DNA from: an uncultured Desulfobacterales bacterium
Lineage (GTDB): Bacteria; Desulfobacterota; Desulfobacteria; Desulfobacterales; SpSt-501
Direction of reading: 5' to 3'
DNA length: 64,000 nt
NCBI GenBank assembly: GCA_938048455.1
Contig: CALIUY010000016.1
Coordinates: 140,796 to 204,795, forward strand
This document shows, piece by piece, positions 5,586 to 47,637 of the stretch. The notes beneath the pieces are model-generated. The model was not told the origin of the DNA. It did not search any database and saw nothing but the letters and a program-made list of their open reading frames with translations. How positions within the stretch are numbered: the stretch's first letter is position 1; each line of letters starts with the position of its first letter. Both the position numbers and the translations under genes were made by a program.

Positions 5586-6352
5586 GTGAACCGCCGCGGA
5601 TGCTCGAAAAATTCGTGGAACTCCGCCGCGAACTCGGCAAACCCGCCCTCATAGCCGGCAAACGAATACCCCGATCGCCGCGCGGCGACCTCCACCTTAC
5701 GGGTCCAGTTGAAGAGATCCGCCGGTCGGGCGCGGCCGTAGATGAGATGATGAGGGTAGAGGTGGACGCGGATCTCCTCGAAGCCCAGATCGTAGAGATG
5801 GGCGTAGAGGCGCCGGCCGGCGTAGGGATCGAAATCGGCCGTCTGCGCCAGATGATCCATCAGCGAAAAGAGCGTCCGCTCCAGCCGCGGCGGCATGCCG
5901 TGGTGGCTGAGGCAGTTGTGGTCCAGATCCGCCAGGCAGAGAATCCCGCCGGGGCGCAACGCCCTCGCCACATGGCGCACGATCTCGAAGGCCGAGCTGC
6001 GGTAGTGCTCGAGAACGAAGCGCATCCAGATGAAATCGAAGCGCCCCAGCTCTTCCAACGGACCGCGGATGTCGGCCGTCACGTAGCGGATGCCGGCGGC
6101 GGCGTAGTGCGCGCGGGCGTAATCGAGGCGCGCCGCCGAGCGGTCGACCGCGATCACTTCGCCCTTCTCGCCCACCAGCCGCTTCAAATGGAAAGAGGTC
6201 TTCCCCGGACCGCAGCCGAAATCCCCCAGCCGCATCCCCGGCCGCACCCCTCCCCAGCGGGCCTGACGGACCAATGCCCGCGGGTCGGTCTTGAGGTCCA
6301 GGCGCAGGGCCTCTTCCTCGCTCTCCATGAGGTAGCGCCCGGCGGAACTCAC
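5519..6352 (-). CDS. Class I SAM-dependent methyltransferase, substrate unknown
   Basis: 277 aa with a Rossmann-fold methyltransferase core. Motif I is LGDFGCGPGKTSFHLKRLV (~43), motif II ends in VIAVDRSAARLDYAR, and the later strands include DFIWMRFVLEHYRSS and ALRPGGILCLADLDHN. The C-terminal ~80 residues (LFNWTRKVEVAARRSGYSF onward) are probably a substrate-recognition part that I cannot assign. Its start overlaps the stop of the upstream PP-loop ATPase gene by 4 nt (6349-6352), so the two form one translational unit. Its 3' end overlaps era by 67 nt in the convergent direction. A nucleoside or tRNA modification role is suggested by the partner but not shown. Confidence 0.85.
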   Translation of the reverse strand: MSSAGRYLMESEEEALRLDLKTDPRALVRQARWGGVRPGMRLGDFGCGPGKTSFHLKRLVGEKGEVIAVDRSAARLDYARAHYAAAGIRYVTADIRGPLEELGRFDFIWMRFVLEHYRSSAFEIVRHVARALRPGGILCLADLDHNCLSHHGMPPRLERTLFSLMDHLAQTADFDPYAGRRLYAHLYDLGFEEIRVHLYPHHLIYGRARPADLFNWTRKVEVAARRSGYSFAGYEGGFAEFAAEFHEFFEHPRRFTYSPLIVCRGRKPLEGSPGGAP

Positions 6353-7182
6353 AGCAGGTTCCTCAGATAATCCTCCCGGCGCATCGCGGAGAACATCTCG
6401 GCCGGCGGCAGATCCAGGGCCTCCACGGCGAAAGCGCGCACTCGCTCGAAGTCAAAGGCGAGCCCCAGACGCTCGTAGAGCTCGGAGAGGCTGCGTTTGG
6501 GTCGGAAAGGCTTGAAGCGGCAGCTCGTCTGCAGGACGGGAATGGCCTCGCGGTCGAGCACCTCCCGAATCTGGGGATCGTTCCAGAAGATAAGGGGTTT
6601 GAAGACGCACATTCCGCCCGGAAGCCGCAGCAGCGGATAGAAGCGCTGGAAGGTCTCCTGGAAACGCTCCTCCACGGGTTTGTAGCGCACGACGCCTTCG
6701 TTGTCGGCAGCGGCGAACTTGGCGCTCAGCAGGTGTTCGAGGCTGGCGCTCACGAGATCCCAGAGGGAATAGCTCATGACGATCGTGAGCCGGTCGAGAT
6801 CCACGTTCTGCGCGCGGATGTAACCCAGGAGCGCCGCTTTTTTTTGGGCGTTGCAGACCCGGCACGGGCTCGTTCCCTCACGGCGGGCCTCTTCGAGACC
6901 AGCCTCCGCTTCGGAAATCTCGTGCCAGCGGATGGAAAGGCCGCGCGCGCTCCAGTAGCGGTCGAGCCGCTCGCGTTCCCCCGGGGGATAGACATGAAGC
7001 GGGAAAAGGGCGGCGTGGGTTTCGAAGACGAAGCCGAACTCGCGGGCCGCGTGCTCCAGAAAATGGAGCACCACCGAAGAATCGCGGCCGCCGGAATAGA
7101 ACATCATCACCCGCCGCCCGCTCAGGGCGGCAAGCTCGTCTTGCACCCGCGCGCAGAAACTCAGGTAGTCAAGGGCTTCCAT
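6349..7182 (-). CDS. PP-loop ATPase (adenine nucleotide alpha-hydrolase, TtcA/TilS-like)
   Basis: N-type ATP-pyrophosphatase family, whose members adenylate a substrate for thiolation or amidation. The first ATG in the track is 26 codons upstream, but ATG at 7182 is the better start because AAGGAA precedes it at good spacing and MEALDYLSFCARVQ begins the domain. That gives 277 aa. The PP-loop is MMFYSGGRDSSVVLHF (~27). SPCRVCNAQKKAALLGYI (~107) gives a CxxC pair like that of TtcA, and later single cysteines (GGMCVFKPL, QTSCRFKPF) could complete an Fe-S or thiol-relay site. It is co-translated with the downstream methyltransferase. Candidate roles are tRNA thiolation or modification of a small molecule. 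Confidence 0.82.
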   Translation of the reverse strand: MEALDYLSFCARVQDELAALSGRRVMMFYSGGRDSSVVLHFLEHAAREFGFVFETHAALFPLHVYPPGERERLDRYWSARGLSIRWHEISEAEAGLEEARREGTSPCRVCNAQKKAALLGYIRAQNVDLDRLTIVMSYSLWDLVSASLEHLLSAKFAAADNEGVVRYKPVEERFQETFQRFYPLLRLPGGMCVFKPLIFWNDPQIREVLDREAIPVLQTSCRFKPFRPKRSLSELYERLGLAFDFERVRAFAVEALDLPPAEMFSAMRREDYLRNLL

Positions 7183-7285
7183 CGGGGCAGATTCCTTAAT
7201 CCTCGAATCCTTGCGCACCCCTCGAGCTCCGCAGCGGAGGAGGGGAACGCCCCCGGCCATCTCCCCCCGGAGCGACGGGTATCGA

Positions 7286-9913
7286 TCAGCGCTTCACGGG
7301 CACCTGTTCGACGGCCACCGGCGGCGGAGGCTGCGCTGCGCCGACGGGCTTTGGCGCCGGTAGAGCGCCGAGCAGGGAGAGGGCGAGCGCCGCCGCATAG
7401 GGAATGGCCTGGATCAGCAAGAGCATGGCGCGCACGAGCGGCTCCTCGGTTTGATCGTTTCCGAAGCCTCCCTGGACGACCGCCGCGGCAACCAACAGAA
7501 CGAACATCAGCGCCTCGCCCCGCGCCATGGCCAGACCCTGCAAGAAGGCATGCCGGTTCTCGCACTTGGGCGTGCGCAGGAAAGGCATGCGGCGCGTGAA
7601 GAGACCGCGCAGGATGGCAAGAGCGATCGTGTGGGTGAGGGCGGCGCCGGCCAGCGCCGCACCCAGGCGCTGGCGCAAGGTGCAGGGGACCCGCGCGGTG
7701 TAGAGCCACAGGAAATGGAGCAGCTTGAACAGAAAGGCCCCGATCGGCGGCAGCATCAACAGGTAGAGCGGAGCCCCGAACTGCCGCGGGAAGAAGAGCA
7801 TGCCCGCCGTCCAGAGGAGGCAGAGCACGTTCATCACCAGGCTGATCGCATCCCCGAACCAGGGCAGCCAGCCGGCGATGAAGTGGTAGCGCTGAGCGAA
7901 GTTGAGCCCCCCGCTTTTCCGGAAAGGGGAGAGCCGGGGCCAGTGGTGCTTGAGGATCTGTACTGCGCCGTAAACCCAGCGGAACCGCTGGCGCTTGTAG
8001 CCGGCAAAGGAATCGGGGGTGAGCCCCTTGCCGAAGCTTTCTTTCACGTAGATCGTCTCGTAGCCCAAACTCTGGATGCGCAGCCCCAACTCGGCGTCCT
8101 CGCAGATGCACCATTCGGCCCAGCGACCCGAGCTCTCGAGGATGCTCCTGCGGATGAGGGTCATCGTGCCGTGCTGGATGATGGCGTTTCGCTCGTTGCG
8201 GTGCACCATGCCGATTTCAAAGAAGCCGTGGTACTCCCAGTTCAGGATTTCCTTGAAGAGGCTTCCTTCCCAGCCGCGGTGATCCTGAGGCGCCTGCACG
8301 ACGCCCACGGCGGGGCGCTCGAAGTGGGGGACGAGCCTTTTCAGCCAATCGGAACGGACGAGGTAGTCGGAGTCCACCACGGCGACGATCTGGGCCTCGG
8401 GGTCGGTGTGCCGCAGGGCGAAGTTGAGCGCCCCGGCTTTGTAGCCTTCGACGCGATCGAGGTGAAAGAACCGGAAACGTGGGCCGAGCAGCCGGCAATG
8501 GGATTCCACCGGCCGCCAAAGCTCGGGGTAGGGGTTGTTGTTGTCGATGACCAGGACCTCGAAGTCCGGGTAGTCAAGCGCGGCCAGCCCGTCGAGGGTG
8601 GCCCGGACCATTTCCGGGGGTTCCTTACAGATCGGAACGTGGATCGAGACGCGGGGGAGCCTCTGCCCGGGAAGCGGCGTGAGAGGAGCGAACCGCCGCC
8701 GGAGCCCCTCCGGCCAGAGCATCTCGGCCATCTCGAAGCCGTTCACCAGGATGATCAGCAGCAGGCCGACCTGCATCGGCAGCAGCAGCGCCCAGACGAG
8801 GGTTTCGCGGCTGAGGAACTCGCCGAGAAGGGGCGAGGCGAGCACCCAGACAAACACCGAAGCCGTCGTCTGGAGCAGGAGCGCGAAAAAGAGCCGGCCG
8901 GAAAAGGTCTGGCCGGGGTTGCTCCGGAGGTAGAGCCCCACCAGGAGCACGCCGGCCAAGACGGCCGCCAGACCGGTATGGAAAAGGGTATCGGAGTGAA
9001 TCGGCCCTTGAAAGGCGAATTTGGGCCGGCGATGGACGTCATAGACGCCCCAGAACGCTCCCACAACGCCTTCGTGCGGCCTTTTCCAGGGCTGGTCGAA
9101 GGCCTCCATGATGCAGTAGTCGATGTCCAGCCGGTCGGCGACCGTGAGAAATCGGCGCAGAAAGCGAGCCTCGGCCTCCCGGCCGGGCTTGGCCTTGCCG
9201 AAGTTCTCCCCGTTGCTCGGCCAGCCGACCTCGGCGAGGAAGACCGGTTTGTGGGGAAAGGCTTCGCGGATCTGACGATAACGGTCCAGCACCCAGCCGA
9301 CCGACTGCTCAAAGGGAACCTTCTCCCAATAAGGCAGGACATGGATGGCGATAAAGTCGATATGTTCGACAAGCTCCGGGTGGCGCTGAAAGACGTGCCA
9401 GGGCTCGGCCGTGCCGACCGGGACCTTGACCGCGGCCCGCACACGGTCCAAGTAGCCGATCAGCTCTTCGACCGACAGGTCGTCACGGTAAATCGCCTCG
9501 TTGCCCACCAGAACGCGCCGGATGGTCGCCGGGTAGCGATGGGCATTTTCGATCAGATTGGCGATCTCGTCCTCGTTGCGCTCGAGACGGCCGTCCACCC
9601 AGGCGCCGGCGGTGACTTCGAACCCCAGGCGGGCCGCCATTCCCGGAATGGCCTCCATCCCGTCGAGCGAGGAGTAGGTGCGGATGCCGCGGGTCTTCCC
9701 GCGCAGAAACAGCAGATCCTCGTAGATTTCCTCGGCCGTCGGGAAGCGTTGGGCGATCGGGTCCTGCTCCGCGCGGTACGGGCTGAAGGAGAGGTAGTTG
9801 AAGGTCCCGCGCCAGTCGACTTCCGGTTTTTCCGGCCGGCTGAACGCCGCCCAGAGAGCGATGTTGAATCCGCAGGCCAAAAGAAGGATGATCCAGCTCT
9901 GCTTGCGCATCAT
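7286..9913 (-). CDS. ndvB: GH17-GT2 fusion glucan synthase (NdvB-like beta-1,3-glucan glycosyltransferase)
   Basis: An inner-membrane enzyme predicted to polymerise and remodel beta-glucan. I place the start at ATG 9913 because GGAAGG lies 8 nt upstream; the track begins at a TTG 28 codons earlier. Of 875 aa, residues ~6-25 form a signal anchor (IILLLACGFNIALWAAF). Residues ~35-290 resemble a GH17 beta-1,3-glucanase (GTFNYLSFSPYR, VLVGNEAIYR, VFLAEVGWPSNGE, with Glu residues in the expected acid/base and nucleophile strands). After membrane helices, ~385-620 is a processive GT2 domain with VSIHVPICKEPPEM, DNNN, VDSDYLVRSDW, CEDAELGLRIQ and the QRFRWVYG product-site motif. More helices follow. 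The same architecture is known in the Pseudomonas NdvB protein that makes cyclic beta-1,3-glucans. No PilZ domain is seen. The gene symbol is by analogy. Confidence 0.85.
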   Translation of the reverse strand: MMRKQSWIILLLACGFNIALWAAFSRPEKPEVDWRGTFNYLSFSPYRAEQDPIAQRFPTAEEIYEDLLFLRGKTRGIRTYSSLDGMEAIPGMAARLGFEVTAGAWVDGRLERNEDEIANLIENAHRYPATIRRVLVGNEAIYRDDLSVEELIGYLDRVRAAVKVPVGTAEPWHVFQRHPELVEHIDFIAIHVLPYWEKVPFEQSVGWVLDRYRQIREAFPHKPVFLAEVGWPSNGENFGKAKPGREAEARFLRRFLTVADRLDIDYCIMEAFDQPWKRPHEGVVGAFWGVYDVHRRPKFAFQGPIHSDTLFHTGLAAVLAGVLLVGLYLRSNPGQTFSGRLFFALLLQTTASVFVWVLASPLLGEFLSRETLVWALLLPMQVGLLLIILVNGFEMAEMLWPEGLRRRFAPLTPLPGQRLPRVSIHVPICKEPPEMVRATLDGLAALDYPDFEVLVIDNNNPYPELWRPVESHCRLLGPRFRFFHLDRVEGYKAGALNFALRHTDPEAQIVAVVDSDYLVRSDWLKRLVPHFERPAVGVVQAPQDHRGWEGSLFKEILNWEYHGFFEIGMVHRNERNAIIQHGTMTLIRRSILESSGRWAEWCICEDAELGLRIQSLGYETIYVKESFGKGLTPDSFAGYKRQRFRWVYGAVQILKHHWPRLSPFRKSGGLNFAQRYHFIAGWLPWFGDAISLVMNVLCLLWTAGMLFFPRQFGAPLYLLMLPPIGAFLFKLLHFLWLYTARVPCTLRQRLGAALAGAALTHTIALAILRGLFTRRMPFLRTPKCENRHAFLQGLAMARGEALMFVLLVAAAVVQGGFGNDQTEEPLVRAMLLLIQAIPYAAALALSLLGALPAPKPVGAAQPPPPVAVEQVPVKR

Positions 9914-38527: not shown

Positions 38528-42123
<3,596 letters not shown>

Positions 42124-42280: not shown

Positions 42281-42838
42281 TTAAGTGTTCATAACGCCTC
42301 TTTTCTTGGCCCCCTCATCGAGCATCCATTTGCGCATGGAAGAAAGGTGCACATTTTTCCATTTAGCGGAAATTCTTTCGGAAATATACAATGAGAAAAT
42401 ATTATCAAAAAAATCAATTACTTTTGATATATGGTCGATACGCTCGAGAAAGGAGCTCTCCAGTTCTTCAGGCGAGGCGAAAGCGGAGGCCGAGGGAATC
42501 TTGATTCCGCAGAGATTCAGGTTTTCCCCCTTGACCGTCAGACGGTACTCTTTTTCCGCTGTGCGCAGCAGCAGTGCAATCTCGCTTACCCAGGCTCCTT
42601 TGCGCAGCGCCAGTTTCGCTTCTTCCAGACCGGCATGATCCCCTTTGATGGTGATTTTCTCTTTGGATTGACCGGTCCGGTTTTCGATCACCAGGCGATC
42701 GCCGATCTCGACAGCGAGGATCTCGGGATGAAGCGCGCACAGCGCCGCCGCACGGGTTTCGATCCCCTGCCAGAGCCAGGTCAGAAATTCATCCCCCAGA
42801 AATCGATACCGGTGATAGGCGACGGTGAGATCAAGCAT
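42281..42838 (-). CDS. RdgC C-terminal-like protein (second part of a split RdgC?)
   Basis: Start ATG 42838 (185 aa), 14 nt after the stop of the preceding ORF and behind GAGGG; the track uses 42913, overlapping that ORF by 61 nt. MLDLTVAYHRYRFLGDEFLT begins it. The stretch KEKITIKGDHAGLEEAKLAL, then RKGAWVSEIALLLRTAEKEY and RLTVKGENLNLCGIKIP, resembles the C-terminal half of E. coli RdgC ([20 protein letters not shown]...). The remainder is helical and charged. It could be a natural separate subunit or the back half of an rdgC gene with a frame change. Function on its own is unknown. Confidence 0.6.
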   Translation of the reverse strand: MLDLTVAYHRYRFLGDEFLTWLWQGIETRAAALCALHPEILAVEIGDRLVIENRTGQSKEKITIKGDHAGLEEAKLALRKGAWVSEIALLLRTAEKEYRLTVKGENLNLCGIKIPSASAFASPEELESSFLERIDHISKVIDFFDNIFSLYISERISAKWKNVHLSSMRKWMLDEGAKKRGVMNT

Positions 42839-42852
42839 CGCTTGTTGAACCC

Positions 42853-43461
42853 TCAAATTCGACTGGGGGTCAATGCGGCCAGCAAATCTTTTTCCTTGGC
42901 GCCGAGGCCGCATTGCAATTCCGCGGCGGTGTAAGGGATAATGCGGATCAGGGAAAGAGAAAAGGATCTTCGAAAAAGGCGCTCCAGCTCCTCGTTGGCG
43001 GTTTTTTGCACCGAAAAAAAGAAAAGTCCGGCCTGTTCATAATTCCAGACGAGATCATACACATGAGGGACCGGCGGGATCCTGGCGAGAAGGCTGGCGG
43101 TCACTTTTTCTTTAAGAGCCTGTTTTTCGTCCCGGGAAAGAAAACTGCGGCGCGTCTCCCGCAACCTTCGCCTGCTGGACAAAGTGAACTCCTTTTGAAA
43201 AAGGCTTGCCGGAATCGGTTTGCGATCGATTCGCAAGGAGAAGACGAAATGGTTCCCCAGAAGGAAGGAGTCGCCTTCAAAATCAGGTTGGAAAGGGCTG
43301 CCGAACGATGTCCAGCCCGAGCAGGATTCCGCGGGGTCATCCTCGATTTCGCGGATGGCATGGCGTTTGAGACCTTCGCGAACCGCCTCCGTGAGGTTGC
43401 CTGTGATCTTTCCTTCGACGCGATAGCGCACGACAGAAACACTCGAAGAAAAAAAGCCCAT
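42853..43461 (-). CDS. rdgC: RdgC-like recombination-associated protein (N-terminal part)
   Basis: RdgC forms a ring on DNA and limits RecA-driven recombination. I choose ATG 43461 (202 aa) because MGFFSSSVSVVRYRVEGKIT aligns with the RdgC opening, which is a short membrane-free strand pattern. SCSGWTSFGSPFQPDFEGDS, FVFSLRIDRKPIPASLFQKE, SRDEKQALKEKVTASLLARI and VWNYEQAGLFFFSVQKTANE follow the family pattern (GW.., ..ICxRxEEKILPSPVI, EKxxLKxEVxxxLLPRA, SAxKAEDxLxLLRKSLG). The C-terminal RdgC region is not here but in the next ORF. It is divergent from the PHP-UvrD gene across 80 bp. Confidence 0.68.
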   Translation of the reverse strand: MGFFSSSVSVVRYRVEGKITGNLTEAVREGLKRHAIREIEDDPAESCSGWTSFGSPFQPDFEGDSFLLGNHFVFSLRIDRKPIPASLFQKEFTLSSRRRLRETRRSFLSRDEKQALKEKVTASLLARIPPVPHVYDLVWNYEQAGLFFFSVQKTANEELERLFRRSFSLSLIRIIPYTAAELQCGLGAKEKDLLAALTPSRI

Positions 43462-43541
43462 CTTGCCGGCCTTTTGGAAAAGAATCGGACCCAAGGTTGC
43501 GGATTTAATTTTTTTCAATTACATAGCGAATTTAGCCGCCC

Positions 43542-46500
43542 ATGACAAGTCCCATCTACAGCCGGGAAATTCTTGCGGATCTTCATCTTCACTCGCGCTT
43601 TTCGCGGGCCACGGCCAAAGGTCTGTCCTTACCCGCATTGCATGCGGCGGCCCAGCTCAAAGGCCTTCAGCTTGTGGCCACCGGCGATGCCACGCATCCC
43701 ATGTGGTTCGCCGAGATCGAGTCCCAACTTCGACCGGCGGAAGCCGGACTATGGCGCCTCGATCCCTGCCTTGCAAATCAGCAAGAGGGGGTTTCCCCCT
43801 CGTGCCGGCAGGAGGTACGCTTTATCCTTTCCGCGGAAGTGTCGCTGATCTACAAAAAAGACGGCCGAACGCGAAAAAATCACCATCTCATTTATTTCCC
43901 GGACCTGGAAAGTCTTCGCGCCTTCAACCGCAGGCTGGAAAAAATCGGCAACATCCGCTCCGACGGTCGACCGATCCTCGGGCTGGATGCATGCGATCTG
44001 CTGGCGCTGCTGCTGGATACCTGCCCCGATGCCTTTCTTGTGCCAGCCCACATCTGGACTCCCTGGTTTTCGGTTCTCGGCTCCCAGTCGGGCTTCGATT
44101 CGCTCGAAGAGTGCTTCGGCGATTTGGTCGGCGAGATTTTCGCCGTGGAAACCGGCCTCTCCTCCGATCCCCCCATGAATCGGCGCGTCTCCTTCCTGGA
44201 CCGCGTCCGCCTGATCTCCAATTCCGACGCCCACTCGCCGGAAAACCTGGGCCGGGAGGCCAATCGCTTTTCCTTCGGCGCCGAGCCGACGTTTTTTGCC
44301 CTGCGGGATGCGCTGAAGGGAACGGGCCCGGGACGGTTCCGGGGAACCATCGAATTCTATCCGGAAGAGGGAAAATACCATTACGACGGGCACCGCAATT
44401 GCGGTGTGCGTTTCTCCCCTCAAGAGACGAGACGGCACGGCGGAATTTGCCCCCGTTGCGGCAAAAGCCTTACGGTCGGGGTGTTGCACCGCGTGGAGGC
44501 CCTGGCCGACCGTCCGGTTCCAACGGGTTCCGCGCCGAGGGATCATTCCTTTGAGAGCCTGATTCCGCTTGCCGACATTCTGGCCGAAATCTTCCAAAGT
44601 TCCAAAACGAGCCGCAAAGTCTCCGCGGCCCGACGCCGCGTGATTGACGCTCTTGGCCCTGAGCTCGCCGTGCTTCGAGAGCGAACGCCGGAGGAGATCC
44701 GCGCCTGTGGGGTGCCGCTTCTCGAGGAGGCGATCGCGCGCATGCGCCGTGGCGAGCTCGAAATCCTGCCCGGATGCGACGGCGAATACGGGAGGATTCG
44801 GATTTTTCGCGAGCAGGAACGCGCGATGCTTTGCGGACAGAAAGCGCTCTTCGCGGCGAACGCAGGCCGTGAGCCTCTGCACCGAAAGATCCGGGAATCT
44901 TCTGCGGAAAACGACGAGCAGCGCCGTCCCGCAGAGCCGCAGGAGACGCTTGCACAGGGACGATCGCTCACCGAAGAGCAGCGCCGGATCGTCGAATCGC
45001 GTGCCGGACGTCTTCTGATCATCGCCGGACCGGGGACCGGCAAGACCCATGTGCTGACGCTGCGCATCGCCCGGCGGATCGAGGAAGGAACCCCCCCGGC
45101 GCGCATTCTGGCGGTGACCTTCACCCGCAAGGCGGCCGAGGAGATGAGCAGCCGGCTCAGCGCGCGGCTGAAGTCGAAGACGGAGCTTCCCTGGGTGACC
45201 ACCTTTCACGGGTTCTGCCTGCGGCTGCTGAGCGAAGAAGGAGTCCTGACGGCAAGACGCCAGATCCTGCACGAGATCGAACAAGAAGCCCTGGTCGCCC
45301 GTGCGCTGCGGCTTGTGGAGCCGGCGCAAGGAAAGGAAAGGCTTCGGGCGATCGATCTGCGGGAGCGCATCATCGCCGCCAAACAGGCGCTTCTCTCTCC
45401 GGAGGAACTTCGCGCCACCCGCGCCGCGGAAGAAGGCGAAGCGCTTCGCTTCCGCGCCGTCTACGCCGTTTACCAAAGCTTGCTTGCTTCCCAAGGGCTC
45501 CTCGATCTCGAGGATCCGCTTTTTTTCGTCGCCCGTCGCTTGGAATCCGATGCCGACTGGCGCCGGAAATGCCGTTTGAGGTTCAGCGAAATCTACGTCG
45601 ACGAATACCAGGATCTCAATTTCGCCCAATACCGCATCCTGCGCCGCCTGGTTCCCAGCGAAGCCGGAGAACCGACGCTTGTGGCCATCGGCGATCCCGC
45701 CCAGGCGATCTACGGTTTTCGCGGTTCGGATCCTTCTTTTTTTCGTCGATTCCAAGAGGATTATCCCGATGCCGTGGTCTTGCCGCTGGAACACAACTTC
45801 CGCTCCCAGCCGGCGATCGTCAGAGCTTCTCGCCGTCTCATCGCTGCGGAAGACGATGAGCTCCGGAATCAGCCGGTGCAGACGGAGCTTGACCCCGGGG
45901 TCGTCCGGCTCCGGGAATGCGTCGATGAAGACGAGGAGGCGCGTTTCATTGCCCTTGAGATCCGCGCCGCCGTCGGCGCCACCGGTTTTCACGAGACGGC
46001 CGACCCCCTGTTCGGTCGGTCGGCGGTCGTCGCGGGCCGCTCTTACCAGGATTTCGCCGTCCTGACGCGCACGGCGGCGCTCTGGAAGCCGATCGCGCGC
46101 GAACTCGAGCGCCGCGGCATCCCTTTTCAGCGGGTCAACCGTCGCGAGTCGCTTCTCGGCGCCATGACCCTGCGGCTGGTCTCTTGGCTGCGGCTCGGCT
46201 TGGGCAAGGCGAGTCTCGAGGATTTGGCCGCGGCGGCCGAATTTCTCGATCCGTCGTTGCCGCCGGGGCGCCTTGCGGCCTTCATCGATTGGGCCTACGA
46301 AAAAAACCTGCGCCTCGAAAAAGCCTTCGAGGCGGCCGAACGCTTCCCCGTTCCCGGACTGAAGCCCCGGGAACAGCGCTTGTTGGTCGCCGCCGTTGCC
46401 AACCTGCGGCGCCTGCAGCGCATGGCGAAACAAAAGAAGGAAAAAGAGGCGATCTTCGATCTTCTGCAGGAGCGGTCGTTCGGGAAAAGCATCGCCCCGG

Positions 46501-46952
46501 AGCTGACGGCGGCCTGCAGAACGCTGGAAGAGACGCTTTCCTGCTTCCCGGAGGAAGCGGATGGGGAAATCCTCGAGCGGCTGGTGACGTCCTCCACCGA
46601 CGGTGATTTCTACCAGGCCGCCGCGCAACGGGTGGCCCTGATGACCCTCCATGGATCCAAGGGCCTCGAGTTTCCCGTCGTCTTCATCGCCGGCTGCGAG
46701 GAAGGCGTTCTCCCCTGGGAGGACGCCGGAGATGACGCAAGCCGCATCGAGGAGGAAAGGCGTCTGTTGTATGTCGGCCTGACGCGGGCCAAACAGAACC
46801 TGATCCTCACTTGGGCGCGCCGCAGGCTCCTCCACGGAAGCAGGCGGGAAAGAAGGCCGTCGCCCTTTCTTTCCCGCCTTGGCCTGCTGCCCGAGGCCGC
46901 GGCAGCAAGGCCGTTCCCGGTGGAACCGCGCCAGTTGGATCTGTTCCCATAA
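43542..46952 (+). CDS. PHP phosphoesterase - zinc ribbon - UvrD/Rep superfamily 1 helicase fusion
   Basis: 1136 aa. Residues ~8-270 are a PHP-type metal-dependent domain: LADLHLHSRFSRATAKGLSL, VATGDATHPMW, ILSAEVSLIYKKDG, FLVPAHIWTPWFSVLG and LISNSDAHSPENLGREANRF supply the His/Asp ligands. A zinc ribbon follows (HRNCGVRF, CPRCGKSLTVG, ~283-305). After a linker, ~475-1110 is a UvrD-type helicase: IIAGPGTGKTHVLTLRIARR (Walker A), AVTFTRKAAEEMSSRLSARL, IYVDEYQDLNFAQYRIL (Walker B), IGDPAQAIYGFRG, LEHNFRSQPAIV, TLHGSKGLEFPVVFIAGCEE and RRLLYVGLTRAKQNLIL. Both parts keep their catalytic residues. A role in DNA repair with RdgC and the clamp is likely but inferred. Confidence 0.9.
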   Translation: MTSPIYSREILADLHLHSRFSRATAKGLSLPALHAAAQLKGLQLVATGDATHPMWFAEIESQLRPAEAGLWRLDPCLANQQEGVSPSCRQEVRFILSAEVSLIYKKDGRTRKNHHLIYFPDLESLRAFNRRLEKIGNIRSDGRPILGLDACDLLALLLDTCPDAFLVPAHIWTPWFSVLGSQSGFDSLEECFGDLVGEIFAVETGLSSDPPMNRRVSFLDRVRLISNSDAHSPENLGREANRFSFGAEPTFFALRDALKGTGPGRFRGTIEFYPEEGKYHYDGHRNCGVRFSPQETRRHGGICPRCGKSLTVGVLHRVEALADRPVPTGSAPRDHSFESLIPLADILAEIFQSSKTSRKVSAARRRVIDALGPELAVLRERTPEEIRACGVPLLEEAIARMRRGELEILPGCDGEYGRIRIFREQERAMLCGQKALFAANAGREPLHRKIRESSAENDEQRRPAEPQETLAQGRSLTEEQRRIVESRAGRLLIIAGPGTGKTHVLTLRIARRIEEGTPPARILAVTFTRKAAEEMSSRLSARLKSKTELPWVTTFHGFCLRLLSEEGVLTARRQILHEIEQEALVARALRLVEPAQGKERLRAIDLRERIIAAKQALLSPEELRATRAAEEGEALRFRAVYAVYQSLLASQGLLDLEDPLFFVARRLESDADWRRKCRLRFSEIYVDEYQDLNFAQYRILRRLVPSEAGEPTLVAIGDPAQAIYGFRGSDPSFFRRFQEDYPDAVVLPLEHNFRSQPAIVRASRRLIAAEDDELRNQPVQTELDPGVVRLRECVDEDEEARFIALEIRAAVGATGFHETADPLFGRSAVVAGRSYQDFAVLTRTAALWKPIARELERRGIPFQRVNRRESLLGAMTLRLVSWLRLGLGKASLEDLAAAAEFLDPSLPPGRLAAFIDWAYEKNLRLEKAFEAAERFPVPGLKPREQRLLVAAVANLRRLQRMAKQKKEKEAIFDLLQERSFGKSIAPELTAACRTLEETLSCFPEEADGEILERLVTSSTDGDFYQAAAQRVALMTLHGSKGLEFPVVFIAGCEEGVLPWEDAGDDASRIEEERRLLYVGLTRAKQNLILTWARRRLLHGSRRERRPSPFLSRLGLLPEAAAARPFPVEPRQLDLFP

Positions 46953-47061
46953 CGCCGCCCCCCGAAAACACTCGCTTTTTCGTTCCCGGCTTGCTCCGCA
47001 GGCGGGATTGCTGGTAAAATGGTGGAGAAACCGAGGAGAGCCATCAGCGGGAAAAAGAGAG

Positions 47062-47637
47062 ATGACGGCGATCGGGATCGCGGCGCTGTTGATCTTCAGC
47101 CTTTGGGTTACGCCGCCAACGGCCGCAGCCGACATCTACCGCTACATCGACGAAAACGGGGTCATGCACTTCACCAACGCTCCGACTTCCCCCAAGTTCA
47201 AGCTCTTCATGCGCGAACGCCGGCAGTTCATCGCCCGGCTGGACGCCCACCACTTCGATCCCCTCATCAACGACGCCTCGCGCAAGTACGGCATCGAGGC
47301 TCCCTTGATCAAGGCCGTGATCAAGGCGGAGTCCGATTTCGACCCCAACGCCGTCTCCCGGAAAGGGGCCCGCGGCCTGATGCAGATCATGCCGATGAAT
47401 TTCCGCCTGCTCAACGTGGAAAACCCCTTCGATCCGCAACAGAACATCGAGGGAGGTGCGCGCTACCTGCGGGAGATGCTCGACCGTTACGGCGGGAACC
47501 TGGAGCTCGCGCTCGCCGCCTACAACGCCGGTCCCGGAGCCGTGGATCGCTTCGCCGGCATCCCCCCCTATCCCGAGACTACCGAGTACATCGATCGGGT
47601 CAAGAAGTACTTCCAAGCCTATACCCGCAATTCCTGA
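47062..47637 (+). CDS. Lytic transglycosylase (SLT, family 1) with DUF4124 N-terminus
   Basis: The track ORF starts far upstream; ATG 47062 gives 191 aa with a signal peptide (IGIAALLIFSLWVTPPTAAA). A short DUF4124 domain, DIYRYIDENGVMHFTNAPTS, leads into the SLT fold: LIKAVIKAESDFDPNAVSRK (catalytic Glu, ~94), GARGLMQIMPMNFRLLNVEN, NIEGGARYLREMLDRYGGNL and LALAAYNAGPGAVDRFAGIP. It cleaves the MurNAc-GlcNAc bond of peptidoglycan in the periplasm. It ends 9 nt from the convergent glgB. Confidence 0.92.
   Translation: MTAIGIAALLIFSLWVTPPTAAADIYRYIDENGVMHFTNAPTSPKFKLFMRERRQFIARLDAHHFDPLINDASRKYGIEAPLIKAVIKAESDFDPNAVSRKGARGLMQIMPMNFRLLNVENPFDPQQNIEGGARYLREMLDRYGGNLELALAAYNAGPGAVDRFAGIPPYPETTEYIDRVKKYFQAYTRNS

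Follow-up and report, generated by a model that had tools for sequence, protein, structure and literature searches.

A putative clamp-tethered fusion of endonuclease Q and a UvrD-type helicase in Desulfobacterales and other bacteria

In mismatch repair and nucleotide excision repair the strand is nicked by MutH or UvrC, respectively, and then removed by the SF1A helicase UvrD; nuclease and helicase are separate proteins in both cases and are brought together by other factors. In the defence system Gabija (GajAB) the nuclease is of the TOPRIM/OLD type and its partner GajB is a UvrD-like helicase. Endonuclease Q (EndoQ) is a lesion-specific enzyme which nicks DNA 5' of uracil, hypoxanthine, xanthine and AP sites and leaves a 3'-OH and a 5'-phosphate (PMC4357722). 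For the stage following the EndoQ nick, published models have the strand displaced by a polymerase, by an exonuclease or, in combination with EndoV, by a helicase that is left unnamed (PMC4357722), and a review describes the alternative excision repair pathway as not yet clarified in full (PMC8438529). Archaeal EndoQ binds PCNA, which stimulates cutting, through a PIP box, and the same authors also drew attention to motifs of the clamp type at the C-terminal end of bacterial EndoQ (PMC4858679).

The gene described here lies in a window of 64,000 nucleotides (the whole stretch of DNA that was analysed) and encodes an EndoQ-like nuclease and a UvrD-type helicase which, unlike MutH plus UvrD or UvrC plus UvrD, form one chain. 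No description of an EndoQ-helicase fusion was found in the open literature searched; a prior mention in subscription papers is possible.

Architecture of the fused protein

The gene is a single uninterrupted open reading frame with an ATG start and comprises the following features:

43542–46952, + strand: EndoQ-UvrD fusion gene, 1136 amino acids (open reading frame, family matches, structure)
43575–44825, + strand: EndoQ domain, residues 12–428, with PHP catalytic, zinc knuckle and helical parts (phmmer, TIGR00375, conserved residues)
44391–44459, + strand: zinc knuckle H284-x2-C287 ... C303-x2-C306 (His-Cys3), aligned to C249/C252/C268/C271 of P. furiosus EndoQ
44838–44852, + strand: internal clamp-type motif QKALF, residues 433–437, directly after the EndoQ domain
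44859–44957, + strand: disordered linker, residues 440–472 (pLDDT below 50)
44964–46880, + strand: PcrA/UvrD-like SF1A helicase, residues 475–1113 (PF00580, PF13361, TIGR01073, PDB 1pjr)
46932–46946, + strand: C-terminal clamp-type motif QLDLF, residues 1131–1135 (motif count, column conservation)

A phmmer search of solved structures matched residues 12–427 to EndoQ of P. furiosus (PDB 5zb8, E = 5e-54; also 7k30–7k33), and the NCBIfam model TIGR00375 aligned with residues 12–419 over positions 2–374 of its 374 (149.6 bits); Pfam returned only a marginal PHP_C match for this half. An AlphaFold2 model of the window protein, built from 58 natural fusions, has a mean pLDDT of 85 and is confident within each half, with low confidence in their relative placement (pTM 0.59) and disorder in the linker and in the tail (residues 1132–1136). 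Its nuclease half superposes on 5zb8 with a TM score of 0.88 and an rmsd of 2.5 Å (Foldseek), revealing the fold of a whole EndoQ including the helical C-terminal part beyond the PHP domain. The metal ligands His15, His17, Glu99, His114, His170, Asp229 and His231 correspond to His8, His10, Glu76, His84, His139, Asp193 and His195 of the P. furiosus enzyme, and Gly205 and Ser207 to its Gly169 and Ser171, which are reported to keep normal bases out of the pocket (PMC8307549). All of these residues are invariant in an alignment of 19 fused and 40 stand-alone relatives. An earlier note on this DNA had called the PHP metal ligands intact and made its reading depend on their convergence in a predicted structure; all seven are indeed kept, and the model superposes on solved EndoQ, so that this check did not refute the reading. 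The ribbon which it termed Cys4-like is likewise present, but as a His-Cys3 knuckle with His284 in place of the first cysteine. This histidine is kept in 19 of 19 fused and 39 of 40 stand-alone relatives, whereas P. furiosus EndoQ has four cysteines.

The window protein is filed as a diverged branch because it lacks the four-cysteine feature and stays below the curated TIGR00375 cut-off of 326.6 bits; none of the 297 genomes sampled from the phylum exceeds this cut-off, so that the branch is a diverged bacterial one. With the known enzymes (P. furiosus PF1551, T. kodakarensis TK0887, B. pumilus; TIGR00375) it shares homology over the whole EndoQ length, fold, ligands, base pocket and a clamp-type motif where the EndoQ domain ends. 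It differs from them by its knuckle, its score below the cut-off, and the additional presence of a UvrD helicase at the C-terminus and of another clamp-type motif.

The helicase half contains both UvrD domains of Pfam above their cut-offs (PF00580, UvrD N, 213 bits; PF13361, UvrD C, 124 bits), aligns at residues 475–1113 with positions 4–631 of the 725 of TIGR01073 (PcrA/UvrD/Rep, 316.6 bits) and matches the solved structure of PcrA (PDB 1pjr) with E = 1e-71. The modelled half superposes on the UvrD-DNA complex 2is2 with a TM score of 0.85 and an rmsd of 3.5 Å (Foldseek), and the helicase motifs are intact (Walker A GPGTGKT, 496–502; DEYQD, 687–691; GDPAQAIYGFRG, 717–728). It is therefore a complete SF1A helicase with all core domains, as the earlier description of a full UvrD-type helicase implied. 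Unlike PcrA, UvrD and Rep, it stops ca. 90 positions short of the end of the PcrA model, terminates with a clamp-type motif and is joined to a lesion nuclease; moreover, its 316.6 bits stay below the equivalog cut-off of 911.2 bits, and it does not group with the conventional copies. In a helicase tree with 12 conventional UvrD/Rep sequences, two of them from the window's own genome, a branch (SH-aLRT 89, fork not starred) separates these from the UvrDs fused or adjacent to EndoQ. Judged by its sequence, the fusion helicase forms a lineage distinct from the conventional copies sampled.

PHP domain, ribbon and UvrD helicase are thus all found within one protein, as had been claimed. The same architecture recurs in genomes of the same genus, and 69 of the 80 named loci fetched from the genome collection show it too, so that it is not a local assembly accident. 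From sequence and fold, we regard the assignment as an EndoQ-like nuclease joined to an SF1A helicase as near certain. The DNA-processing role proposed earlier appears right in kind, although, given the EndoQ identity, the expected substrate would be a deaminated base within a strand instead of the DNA end then suggested.

Clamp-type motifs and genomic neighbourhood

The motifs QKALF and QLDLF are not mentioned in the earlier note. QKALF occupies the place of the PIP box in archaeal EndoQ, and a Q..[LMI]F pattern is found at the end of the EndoQ domain in 51 of 77 fusions compared to 2.8% of random stretches. The window protein terminates with RQLDLFP. A Q[LM].[LM]F pattern occurs among the last 12 residues of 59 of the 77 fusions and of none of 498 control ORFs, which are the neighbouring ORFs of the fusion loci, and a looser clamp motif within the last 30 residues of 71 of 77 and 12 of 498, respectively; these counts reflect conservation and not independent events, because the sequences are related. 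Among 58 fusions, the columns of Gln1131 and Leu1134 are at least 90% conserved. Both motifs occur together in 56 of 87 proteins of an enlarged fusion set, the C-terminal one being missing or altered in a minority of fusions, and the conventional UvrD/Rep helicases of the same genomes have different C-terminal endings. A conserved Q-x-x-L-F-type motif in a flexible segment is what would be expected of a β-clamp client, and QKALF and QLDLF are likely to be sliding-clamp docking motifs.

Comparable motifs are present where EndoQ and UvrD are encoded by adjacent genes. In one such pair (L065) EndoQ ends with QLGLF and UvrD with QLTLF, and in another (L130) the corresponding motifs are QKTLF and QLELF, which suggests that each half brought its own motif. 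In the latter locus, from a Candidatus Peregrinibacteria genome (positions 5989–9709), the EndoQ gene overlaps the predicted start of the adjacent UvrD gene of 865 amino acids. This arrangement, with both genes ending in clamp-type motifs, possibly represents a pre-fusion state.

Upstream of the fusion gene and divergent from it the window contains:

41005–42123, − strand: dnaN (sliding clamp), divergent neighbour conserved in Desulfobacterales (same-genus and same-order synteny)
42281–42913, − strand: orf210, without a Pfam match, travelling with the rdgC-like gene (24 loci hold both)
42853–43518, − strand: RdgC-like protein, first half of RdgC (PF04381, 26.3 bits, cut-off 25)

The order gyrB-dnaN-orf210-rdgC-like, divergent from endoQ-uvrD, is shared by members of the window's genus and by many Desulfobacterales, so that the divergent placement beside rdgC and dnaN pointed out earlier is real, with the qualification that the gene is rdgC-like. 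The shared repair function deduced from it fares less well: conservation of the arrangement is seen within Desulfobacterales, whereas none of the loci retrieved from other phyla showed it, and for this reason it is by itself weak functional evidence. The proximity of dnaN to a protein with clamp-type motifs is more suggestive. RdgC is represented by two overlapping genes (42281–43518, − strand), of which only the first half scores, barely above the cut-off; loss of rdgC by a frameshift was rejected because 24 loci have kept the two-gene form. Directly downstream of the fusion, a lytic transglycosylase gene (SLT with DUF4124; 46879–47637, + strand) is found, which also lies near the fusion in about 20 relatives and has no evident link to repair.

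Distribution, history and uracil-repair repertoire

In a sample of 297 genomes of the phylum, 194 encode EndoQ, in two size classes of about 410–480 and about 950–1270 residues. The 69 fused loci among the 80 named ones span about a dozen phyla, including Desulfobacterota, Myxococcota, Gemmatimonadota, Latescibacterota, Chloroflexota, Planctomycetota, Elusimicrobiota, Pseudomonadota, Actinomycetota, Bacillota and SAR324, single placements being possibly wrong since most named loci are metagenome-assembled genomes. Adjacent EndoQ and UvrD genes were found in several loci (L035, L056, L065, L078, L119 and L130). An EndoQ tree, obtained by a quick search, rooted on the long P. furiosus branch and containing several weak forks, suggests an order from stand-alone enzymes via adjacent pairs to a fused group with several later helicase losses. 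If this order is right, the internal motif derives from the C-terminus of EndoQ and the terminal motif from the helicase partner. In five loci (L057, L058, L060, L086 and L140) the EndoQ gene falls within the fused clade, with neither a helicase found in its vicinity nor a clamp motif at the C-terminus; these are probably secondary losses and indicate that the helicase can be lost.

The window's own genome encodes a uracil-DNA glycosylase (UDG), and the fusion is therefore not essential for uracil repair there. A simple phylum-wide replacement of UDG by EndoQ is not seen either, as UDG is present in 265 of the 297 genomes compared to 194 with EndoQ; such a pattern is limited to one family of the same phylum (f49, comprising G213 and its relatives, probably the Desulfovibrionaceae). 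In this family EndoQ was found in 93 of 99 genomes, a UDG-superfamily protein in 34 and EndoV in 2, the numbers for the high-quality genomes being 80, 30 and 2 of 81. The EndoQ reading frames are mostly about 1050–1400 residues long and thus mostly fused. EndoQ without UDG and EndoV occurs in 63 of 99 genomes, and the only two genomes devoid of both EndoQ and UDG are 54% and 67% complete. Among EndoQ, UDG and EndoV, EndoQ in its mostly fused form is hence often the sole one found in the family. The mutual exclusion of UDG and EndoQ is not significant (Fisher p 0.18) because EndoQ is almost universal in this family.

Proposed mechanism and alternative readings

We consider it probable, on the strength of homology and motif conservation, that the fusion acts as a single-chain, clamp-tethered enzyme of alternative excision repair which nicks at deaminated bases and peels off the damaged strand. 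The reaction would start with the EndoQ half flipping out uracil, hypoxanthine, xanthine or an AP site and cleaving the phosphodiester bond 5' to the lesion, so that a 3'-OH remains and the lesion nucleotide carries a 5'-phosphate. Subsequently, the linked SF1A helicase, presumably of 3' to 5' direction like its family, might load at the nick on the undamaged strand and peel the lesion-bearing strand from its 5' end. Since loading on the nicked strand would result in unwinding away from the lesion, polarity is a key point of this scenario. The β clamp, contacted by QKALF and QLDLF, might hold the enzyme at the nick and recruit the polymerase for fill-in, and flap removal and ligation would complete the repair.

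Alternatively, the two halves might merely be co-produced, EndoQ nicking lesions and the helicase performing general UvrD/PcrA work in nucleotide excision repair, mismatch repair or conflict resolution, with no hand-over between them. UvrD-like helicases act in many pathways, the window's genome has UDG, and some relatives carry EndoQ without a helicase, all of which agrees with such a loose association. We nevertheless judge it unlikely, as the conventional UvrD/Rep-type helicases of the same genome branch apart from all fused or adjacent ones, and the adjacent-gene pairs indicate the same EndoQ-UvrD partnership.

Considerably less probable is a Gabija-like nuclease-helicase directed against uracil- or inosine-containing DNA of phages or plasmids. 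Such a role is in line with the pairing of a nuclease with a UvrD-like helicase, with matches of GajB profiles to the helicase half and with possible antiviral roles of bacterial EndoQ mentioned in a review (PMC8307549). However, any UvrD is expected to match GajB, no defence profile matches the EndoQ half, and no GajA-type match is present in the protein, which, unlike GajAB, contains a repair nuclease encoded at a conserved chromosomal place in the housekeeping neighbourhood of gyrB and dnaN. EndoQ is, moreover, nearly universal in the family analysed above. As the fusion protein had no phage match at all and no plasmid record matched it over more than 80% of its length, and the defence profiles detected only a generic UvrD, the defence reading was rejected. 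A proofreading nuclease or phosphatase trimming DNA ends in front of the helicase or in its wake, by analogy with the PHP domains of bacterial replicative polymerases as first proposed, shares with the protein the PHP superfamily and intact metal ligands, but is ruled out for practical purposes by the full-length EndoQ matches in sequence and fold (5zb8), which extend to the non-PHP domains and to the base-discriminating Gly205 and Ser207.

Returning to the nick-and-peel enzyme, we would go further only tentatively and with some doubt: the fusions might be self-contained, clamp-guided machines which perform the complete first half of alternative excision repair and, in a large bacterial family, have taken over from UDG and EndoV as the principal protection against deamination. 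The fusion provides a candidate helicase for the missing step after the EndoQ nick, which can be tested with one purified protein. EndoQ is far more common among bacteria than the literature searched, which names few genera, would suggest, and the fusion points to the possibility that in many bacteria the handling of uracil in DNA does not depend mainly on a glycosylase.
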